Shown here piece after piece: positions 3,715 through 22,991 of a stretch of 22,991 bases of DNA. Under the pieces are notes generated by a model. The model was not told the DNA's origin, did no database searches, and saw only the letters and a list, made by a program, of their open reading frames with translations. The first letter of the stretch is position 1, and every line of letters starts with the position of its first letter. The stretch covers positions 1-22,991 of IMG/VR virus record IMGVR_UViG_3300006737_000233. One strand, given 5' to 3'. The DNA comes from a virus. Position numbers and translations under genes: made by a program.

Positions 3715-3722
3715 TATTTATA
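3715..3722 (-). promoter_or_regulatory. T4-type late promoter (TATAAATA), minus strand, for gp4-114aa-gp48-gp53
   Basis: On the minus strand the sequence reads CTATAAATATTT, an exact match to the T4 late -10 element recognised by the gp55 sigma-like factor. Initiation about a turn downstream would give a short leader before the AAGAG and the gp4 ATG at 3687. The element ends one base short of the divergent gp54 start codon at 3724. Confidence 0.7.
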
Positions 3723-14704: not shown

Positions 14705-14711
14705 TATTTAG
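14705..14711 (-). promoter_or_regulatory. Candidate late promoter CTAAATA for the 84-aa gene
   Basis: On the minus strand ACTAAATATTT lies 19 nt before the ATG at 14685, a near match to the T4 late element. The region between the two divergent genes is only 78 bp, so a promoter for each must sit here. The other is GATAAATA on the plus strand. Confidence 0.45.
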
Positions 14712-14728
14712 TTGAATATATATGTGAT

Positions 14729-14736
14729 GATAAATA
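14729..14736 (+). promoter_or_regulatory. Late promoter GATAAATA for the giant fibre gene
   Basis: GATAAATA differs from the T4 late consensus TATAAATA in the first base only and lies 27 nt before the ATG at 14764. The distance is close to that of the exact plus-strand late element before the fibre gene at 21209. No strong Shine-Dalgarno is seen in the leader. Confidence 0.55.
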
Positions 14737-20771: not shown

Positions 20772-21146
20772 TTATCCTGCCTCTGGAATTATAATACAAT
20801 TATACCCATCAATACGCGTGGAATCAGTATGCGTTATGGAGAAGGTTTCACCTGCAGCAATGGCAATTTCTAATGGGACTGCTGTTCTTGAGGAACCTCC
20901 TCCTGTTTGAGCAGACATTACTTGAGTAGCACTTACACCAGTTCCTCCACCAAAATTATCTGTTAATGCTAAAGTTTTACCATAACTAGCACCTGCTTTC
21001 AAATCTACTGTTACACCTTGGAAAGTCATAGTTCCATCACCTGCACCAGTTAATATATTGACGTAATTGATAACTATTCTTACATTTTGTCCTGTAGTGT
21101 TAGTAAAAGTAACATTACCTGATCCACTTAATACTTGGGCAGCCAT
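20772..21146 (-). CDS. Small beta-rich virion-associated protein candidate (124 aa)
   Basis: The protein is unassigned. It begins MAAQVLSGSGNVTFTNTTGQ, continues NVRIVINYVNILTGAGDGTM, and ends FSITHTDSTRIDGYNCIIIP-EAG. The composition (Thr, Gly, Ser, Val, few charges) and alternation of strands suggest a small beta-sandwich like fibre tips or decoration proteins. A tail pattern 'AGETFSITHTD...IIIPE' loosely recalls 'PGETIELQASAN...TIIAEQ' near the end of the visible part of the next fibre. It is transcribed against both flanking fibre genes. Its stop is 2 nt from that of the giant fibre, and an exact late promoter lies 22 nt before its ATG. That promoter and the coding pattern argue that it is real. 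Confidence 0.72.
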   Translation of the reverse strand: MAAQVLSGSGNVTFTNTTGQNVRIVINYVNILTGAGDGTMTFQGVTVDLKAGASYGKTLALTDNFGGGTGVSATQVMSAQTGGGSSRTAVPLEIAIAAGETFSITHTDSTRIDGYNCIIIPEAG

Positions 21147-21168
21147 ATCCAGTTGAAATACTTTTTTA

Positions 21169-21176
21169 TATTTATA
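21169..21176 (-). promoter_or_regulatory. T4-type late promoter TATAAATA (minus) for the 124-aa gene
   Basis: The minus strand reads TTTATAAATATAAAAAAG, with an exact TATAAATA ending 22 nt before the ATG at 21146. It shares bases 21173-21176 with the plus-strand element of the same palindrome. Confidence 0.7.
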
Positions 21177-21180
21177 AATA
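21173..21180 (+). promoter_or_regulatory. T4-type late promoter TATAAATA (plus) for the second fibre gene
   Basis: This is an exact TATAAATA on the plus strand, 28 nt before the ATG at 21209. A GGTGGAGAG sequence at 21191-21199 serves as ribosome-binding site. Together with the minus element it forms the palindrome TATTTATAAATA at 21169-21180. Confidence 0.72.
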
Positions 21181-21208
21181 AAAAGAAAAGGGTGGAGAGT
21201 GAAACCCC

Positions 21209-22991
21209 ATGGCTGTAAATAAGAATTTTGTCGTCAAGAATGGACTGGAAGTTAAGTCCAATCTTTTGGTAGCAGATACTAGTCAAGATTCCGTAGGTAT
21301 AGGAACTAGTTTTATCAAAGAAAAACTCCATGTTATTGGAGGTATTGGTGCTACTAGTTTGTTTGTTGGTGGTATTGGAACAGTTCATGTAGCAACTGGT
21401 ACTACTGCAAGATATGAGAATGTTAATATTACAGGGGTGGGTACTATTGCCACCTTTAGTGCCAATTCTATAAATGCTGCCAATATAAATGTCAGCGCAG
21501 CAGTCACTGCCAATAAGTTTTATGGTGATGGTTCTACGCTTACTGGTGTCTCTGTTGGTGTACGAACTGCTGGTGCTGTAGTTGGATATGGTGTAACTTT
21601 CTTAGATTTTAGAGGAGCTGGTGTATCCACTGCTTTCTTTAATAATAATGTTGGTATTGCCACTGTCTTCTTCCAAGGTGGTGGAAGTGGTGGATCAGTA
21701 AGTATTAGTAGTGCTGCTCCTTCCAGTCCAAACAATGGAGACTTGTGGTATAGTATTGATTTTGCTAGAACTTTTGTTTACTATGATGAAGTTGAACTGG
21801 GTGTTGGATCAGGAGCATTCTGGGTAGATGCTGCTCCATTCAATCAAGGTGGAGCTTTTCTTGGATCATATGGTGCTACTTCATTTGGAGCAATAGGATA
21901 TACAAGTGGCACAAAAACAGTTCCAAGTATATATTTCACAGGAGATACAAATACAGGTATATTCCAAGGTGGATCAGCAGATCATTTCTCAATAGCAGCA
22001 GGTGGTTCAGGTATAGCAACTGTTAATGTTGGTGGACTTAATGTTTCTGGTGTAGTTACATCTCATAGTTTATCTCTAAGTGGAGATGCTACTGTTGCTG
22101 GTAACTTGAATGTTACTGGAGACTTAGTATATGATGAAGAAAGGGGTGTCAACTTATTAATAAGTGGTGTTGGAACATTTGGTGGTGCTGTATCAATAGG
22201 AGATAGTATAATTCATACTGGAGATACAGATACATCACTAAGATTCCCTTCTGCAAATACTATTACATTAAATACAGGGAATTTAGAGAGAGCTAAGGTA
22301 GATTCAAGTGGTAATATAAATGTTAATGCTGGAGAATTGAGACTTAAAGCTGCAGCTGGTGATTCTAATGGGTTAAAGTTATATCAAGGCGGTAGTGATA
22401 CTTCTTATATTTTTAATCATTTTAGTGGACCTATATTATTTGGAACTGTTAATGCAGAAAAAGTTCGCATCACAACAGGTGGTAATCTAGGTATAGGAAC
22501 AGCAGATCCAACAAAGGATGTGACTGGACTTACATCTAGATTGGGTGTTGGTATTGTTACTGCTGCATATCTTTATGGTGATGGTTCAAACCTAACTGGT
22601 ATTGCTGCTGGTGGTTCTGGACAGTTCAACACTGGTCTAACTGGTGCTACTGCCTATGCTGTTACCACTTCAATGGCAACTGCACTAACTGCTAATGCAA
22701 GTTCAAGTTACAGAACAGTCATACATTCAATTCATGTTGCTAACATCAGTGCTGCTGAAGTAACAGTGAGTGGTGAGATGCAAGCAAGTTTCTCCTTTGC
22801 TCATACCATACCAATACCTGCAGGTTCAGCAGTTGAATTGCTCAAGCAACCTAAGGTTCTTGGACCAGGTGAGACAATAGAACTTCAAGCAAGTGCTAAC
22901 TCAGCATTACAAGCAACCATTATTGCAGAACAGAAAGAGGATACAGATTTATGGGATGCTCAAGTTGATATAACTTCTGCTGCTACATGGA
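21209..22991 (+). CDS. Tail fibre protein (3' end outside window)
   Basis: The ATG at 21209 opens a frame without stops to the window end (594 complete codons). The start MAVNKNFVVKNGLEVKSNLL, then VADTSQDSVGIGT, is the usual opening of cyanophage fibres. Fibre signatures follow: KFYGDGSTLTGV and later YLYGDGSNLTGIAAG, IYFTGDTNTGIFQGG, LRFPSANTITLNTGN followed by LERAKVDSSGNINV, and GGNLGIGTADP. The visible end has a different beta domain, SSYRTVIHSIHVANISAAEV then IPIPAGSAVELL and VLGPGETIELQASAN, which could be a tip domain. It probably belongs to a trimeric fibre that contacts the host. GGTGGAG lies about 10 nt before the ATG. Whether an S74 chaperone follows cannot be seen. A spurious open frame on the opposite strand over the first 180 nt was disregarded. 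Confidence 0.85.
   Translation, partial: MAVNKNFVVKNGLEVKSNLLVADTSQDSVGIGTSFIKEKLHVIGGIGATSLFVGGIGTVHVATGTTARYENVNITGVGTIATFSANSINAANINVSAAVTANKFYGDGSTLTGVSVGVRTAGAVVGYGVTFLDFRGAGVSTAFFNNNVGIATVFFQGGGSGGSVSISSAAPSSPNNGDLWYSIDFARTFVYYDEVELGVGSGAFWVDAAPFNQGGAFLGSYGATSFGAIGYTSGTKTVPSIYFTGDTNTGIFQGGSADHFSIAAGGSGIATVNVGGLNVSGVVTSHSLSLSGDATVAGNLNVTGDLVYDEERGVNLLISGVGTFGGAVSIGDSIIHTGDTDTSLRFPSANTITLNTGNLERAKVDSSGNINVNAGELRLKAAAGDSNGLKLYQGGSDTSYIFNHFSGPILFGTVNAEKVRITTGGNLGIGTADPTKDVTGLTSRLGVGIVTAAYLYGDGSNLTGIAAGGSGQFNTGLTGATAYAVTTSMATALTANASSSYRTVIHSIHVANISAAEVTVSGEMQASFSFAHTIPIPAGSAVELLKQPKVLGPGETIELQASANSALQATIIAEQKEDTDLWDAQVDITSAATW

Follow-up and report, generated by a model that had tools for sequence, protein, structure and literature searches.

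Can a single short element drive late transcription of two virion genes in opposite directions? The question is raised by a locus in a 22,991-base stretch of virus DNA (the window, meaning the whole stretch that was analyzed), which carries T4-like virion genes for the tail tube, baseplate wedge and hub, head closure and tail fibres. In this locus, a minus-strand gene (20772–21146) encoding a beta-rich protein of 124 aa is divergent from a plus-strand gene (21209–22991) that runs off the contig and whose product resembles tail fibre or baseplate wedge proteins (PHROG 18345 and 8215). The 62-nt gap between the two start codons (ATG 21146 on the minus strand and ATG 21209 on the plus strand) contains the 12-bp palindrome TATTTATAAATA (21169–21180, without strand), which was delimited from the sequence and from related loci and consists of two abutting late promoter cores, TATTTA and TAAATA.

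Transcription of late genes in T4-like phages depends on gp55. This small sigma factor recognizes TATAAATA at positions −13 to −6 and uses no −35 element (PMC2988020, PMC1524935). Placed according to these studies, the −13 to −6 box of the tail fibre gene occupies positions 21173–21180 on the plus strand, and that of the 124-aa gene, an exact match, positions 21169–21176 on the minus strand. The two boxes thus lie on opposite strands at an offset of four bases, have four base pairs in common, and are 22 nt (124-aa gene) and 28 nt (tail fibre gene) away from the start codons. The first-pass annotation had described the palindrome with these boxes, offset and distances, and every one of these points was borne out. 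The 12-mer appeared 3 times per 20,000 dinucleotide shuffles of the 62-nt gap, and shuffling of the whole window gave an expectation of about 0.003 copies. Exact TATAAATA sites occur three times in the window, in all cases 22–28 nt upstream of a start codon and on the right strand. Downstream of the two boxes of the palindrome are the AT-rich sequences AAAAG and TAAAA, a trait of T4-type late promoters. Both boxes are exact because each of the abutting TAAATA cores provides T−13 and A−12 of the other. The excess of T−13 and A−12 at shared boxes is therefore forced by the abutting cores, and we did not count it as independent evidence; it was further discounted because the loci compared had been defined by the exact 12-mer.

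We consider it very probable (roughly 0.86) that TATTTATAAATA is a bidirectional late promoter, to which a gp55-type factor would bind either way round. A gp55 homologue on the host RNA polymerase would bind the symmetric element in one orientation to start leftward transcription of the 124-aa gene at an A at about 21163 (minus strand), and in the other orientation to start the rightward tail fibre transcript at an A at about 21186 (plus strand), both positions being predicted from the spacing of T4 late promoters. The resulting distance of 23 bp, which depends on these predicted start sites, falls within the set of 18, 10 or 23 bp preferred by bidirectional promoters based on symmetry of the −10 element, and 23 bp is one common start spacing among E. 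coli bidirectional promoters (PMC12825309). On steric grounds, the two polymerase complexes are likely to exclude each other at the palindrome; mutual exclusion of polymerase orientations has been stated for the E. coli bidirectional promoters (PMC12825309). Four long relatives in which the element is present contain gp55 homologues with 35–39% identity to the T4 protein. No gp55 match was obtained in G077, an element-carrying relative of 204,829 bases, or in the 23-kb window, which is too short to be informative in this respect.

Two sets of loci were selected by a neighbouring protein, either the tail fibre protein or the 124-aa family, and not by the motif. Among the loci selected by the tail fibre protein, the exact 12-mer was present in all seven distinct divergent loci and in none of the 49 co-oriented ones (Fisher p = 4e-9, a value that overstates independence because the loci are related to one another). 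The co-oriented loci all kept a single late box at the same place (49/49), which was an exact TATAAATA in 14 of them. Divergent loci of the 124-aa family had a late box on each strand in 36 out of 36 cases. In 27 of these, the two boxes shared the exact 12-mer, against about 0.01 expected by shuffling; the remaining nine contained two separate boxes, whose starts are 11–13 bp apart, with mostly ACTAAATA on one side. Sharing of one core is therefore not obligatory. In at least seven loci with asymmetric variants of the type TATTTATA...ACTAAATA, the cores are 7–9 bp apart and both late boxes are retained, and separated boxes were also seen in the fragmentary loci L101 and L116, which are not part of the 36. 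Neither a second box nor the 12-mer was found in the seven co-oriented homologues of the 124-aa gene. The distances between box and start codon were tight on the two sides of the divergent loci (21–27 and 24–31 nt). An alignment of this intergenic region in related phages, as proposed in the first-pass annotation, revealed that both half-sites are conserved in the divergent relatives, and the longest invariant run across eight aligned junctions was the 12-mer. Moreover, all 31 copies of the 12-mer detected in 89 marine records are located at the junction of the tail fibre and 124-aa genes. The conservation in relatives, which are partly non-independent, supports the proposal that a single element forms two overlapping, divergent late promoters, one serving the gene of a small beta-rich protein and the other a tail fibre gene.

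The element is also present in T4 itself, where the 12-mer occurs once in 168,903 bases (AF158101, 116450–116461), between genes 26 and 51. An older T4 record (GenBank M77695.1) annotates TATA boxes of genes 26 and 51 that overlap on this 12-mer (772–779 and 768–774). Hence, the initial view that such an arrangement had not been described does not hold for the sequence itself, and no text treating the T4 26/51 site as one bidirectional promoter was found in the open literature. When the 26/51 junction was inspected in 13 genera of the Straboviridae, the exact 12-mer was found in ten, T4 included. These ten are among the twelve genera in which the two genes are divergent, the other two, Krischvirus and Biquartavirus, having near variants; the 12-mer is absent from this region of RB43, where gene 51 is co-oriented. 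Twelve further Straboviridae genomes contained ten copies, all between divergent genes. One of the ten is a second 12-mer in KARL-1 (22846–22857; L210:847–858), located where a gene for a holin lysis mediator and a hypothetical gene diverge.

IMG/VR was also scanned for the 12-mer between CCAT and ATGG. Among the matches listed, 46 of 79 sites were flanked on either side, at promoter distance, by divergent open reading frames of 55 aa or more, as opposed to 2 of 80 for a control palindrome (p = 5e-16). By rough clustering, these sites fall into at least about 16 gene-pair groups, several of whose members match tail tube, tail sheath stabiliser, head-tail adaptor, L-shaped tail fibre assembly, holin and baseplate hub families. 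No copy of the 12-mer was found in six marine reference genomes, cyanophages among them, or in KVP40, and use of the element is therefore patchy. Judged by its sequence distribution, the palindrome is a real and reused design in T4-like phages, T4 included, rather than a one-off, and it recurs at many gene pairs. T4-like phages would then repeatedly run divergent virion genes, at least about 16 pairs, off one 12-bp element with two cores, whose conservation extends from T4 to phages of marine origin, and the 12-mer may serve as a simple annotation signature for divergent late operons.

Bidirectional promoters based on −10 symmetry are already known, as are the T4 26/51 boxes, which were annotated earlier; what appears to be new, in the searchable open literature, is the abutted late core that recurs and is conserved at divergent virion genes of T4-like phages. 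We classify the palindrome as a gp55-type variant of the −10-symmetry promoters of bacteria and archaea described by Warman, Grainger and colleagues (PMC12825309), with which it has in common a short symmetric element and, by prediction, divergent transcription; here, a perfect 12-bp palindrome is shared between divergent predicted starts. Those promoters are read by sigma-70 through TATAAT, as a rule accompanied by a −35 element and further elements that are optional. The palindrome, in contrast, fits phage gp55, with an 8-bp box lacking a −35 element and an exact 12-bp symmetry, and links coding genes from which it is separated by short, conserved distances. The T4 26/51 site has the identical 12-mer between two divergent virion assembly genes (AF158101, M77695.1), but these baseplate hub genes form an unrelated pair. 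The T4-type late promoters of marine myoviruses (NATAAATA; PMC2984593) are alike in box sequence and distance to the start codon, but are usually single and one-directional, with a relaxed position −13.

The first-pass annotation had further suggested a built-in stoichiometry switch, in which competition between polymerases at the bidirectional promoter would determine in what ratio the two proteins are made. The two footprints should indeed be unable to coexist, late promoters can reach high strength when activated by the sliding clamp, the activation being about 300-fold in T4 (PMC2988020), and competition has been seen at E. coli bidirectional promoters under strong activation, although it matters there only at high activity (PMC12825309). 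Nevertheless, relatives that have this gene pair in common alternate between shared and separated boxes, and therefore no selection for a specific coupling is visible. In addition, the leaders of the two mRNAs are very different, and output need therefore not be set by the promoter: the leader of the 124-aa gene is 17 nt long with a weak GGA, whereas that of the tail fibre gene contains a hairpin (GGGTGGAGAGTGAAACCC, 21190–21207, plus strand) with a Shine-Dalgarno-like GGAG in the loop, whose conservation in the leaders of about 95 relatives suggests separate translational control. Given the nine relatives with separated boxes and these leader differences, the switch was not supported, and we regard it as unlikely.

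On the preferred reading of a bidirectional late promoter, relative output is probably set by promoter escape, by the leader differences and by the facing of the clamp, rather than by the palindrome itself. Judging from T4 biochemistry, it is the lack of a −35 element at late promoters that would let clamp facing affect output. Activation of T4 late promoters requires a DNA break in the non-transcribed strand, and therefore the orientation of the clamp sets polarity (PMC2988020), so a clamp facing one way would, by our hypothesis, bias a symmetric promoter towards one direction. It is conceivable, though rather doubtful, that clamp orientation would choose the direction at the palindrome and that the transcript ratio would report, or be set by, the direction and the nicks of the replication that passes through it.

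A second alternative is that function is limited to one direction and that the other box results from the AT richness and symmetry of the sequence. Palindromic −10 elements rich in A and T form readily, and the basal activity of the E. coli bidirectional promoters tested was low (PMC12825309). However, neither the 124-aa gene nor the tail fibre gene has any late box within 60 nt other than that of the palindrome, and both boxes are always present in the divergent relatives while the second is always gone when the upstream gene is co-oriented, which makes this explanation very improbable. Least probable of all is that the palindrome is the site of a dimeric regulator or another symmetric DNA-binding protein with an incidental promoter likeness: perfect two-fold symmetry over 12 bp is found at many dimer sites, but we rejected this reading because asymmetric relatives (TATTTATA...ACTAAATA) retain both late boxes, and co-oriented loci, moreover, keep the box facing the gene and lose the other, and the box-to-start distances agree with those of T4 late promoters.

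Two other candidates were discarded. No sigma-70-like −35/−10 pair was found over the site, and a sigma-70 promoter was rejected on that basis. RNA structure in the leaders does not explain the palindrome either, as the latter would be untranscribed, being located between both predicted starts, and the folding stability of the two leaders in the window was no better than that of shuffled sequences; Rfam gave no match for the leaders. The hairpin of the tail fibre leader, which may be a translational operator, occurs in two classes. Class 1 displays paired stem changes (GGG/CCC, AGG/CCT and GAGG/CCTC) around GGAGAGUGA, and class 2 has the form GGU(U/A)GGCG(C/U)UCUCC(A/U)CC. The exact class 1 core was found once in Bellamy and in none of eight other genomes.

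Being encoded next to tail fibres, the 124-aa protein may act in the virion or as an adhesin. AlphaFold2 predicted, fairly confidently (mean pLDDT 85, pTM 0.76), a small beta protein with a low-confidence middle part, and the family alignment revealed conserved N and C termini flanking a hypervariable middle, with identities of only 38–56% in more distant members. Searches of Pfam and PDB sequences gave no match, PHROGs yielded none for the window protein and weak single-member hits only, and a fold search with the model returned nothing at E ≤ 0.001. Scanning IMG/VR with the single sequence produced no matches; with the family alignment as query, 63 loci were found. In L003 (5893–6690), two tandem copies of the 124-aa protein make up a single protein of 265 aa. 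In L121, L150 and L154, the homologues are co-oriented behind upstream reading frames, those of L150 and L154 having collagen-like GPPG repeats at their ends, recalling a fibre gene followed by that of its adhesin.

Two other divergent junctions in the window also contain late boxes. Between a gp4-like head closure gene (3687, minus strand) and a tail tube gene (3724, plus strand), the boxes are crossed, as at T4 4/53: TATACATA on the plus strand stands to the left of TATAAATA on the minus strand (3715–3722), and each transcript would therefore traverse the other promoter. At the junction 14685 (minus)/14764 (plus), the boxes are back to back and separated, with ACTAAATA on the minus strand (14705–14712) and GATAAATA on the plus strand (14729–14736). 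Together with the palindrome, three late box geometries are thus present within one window.
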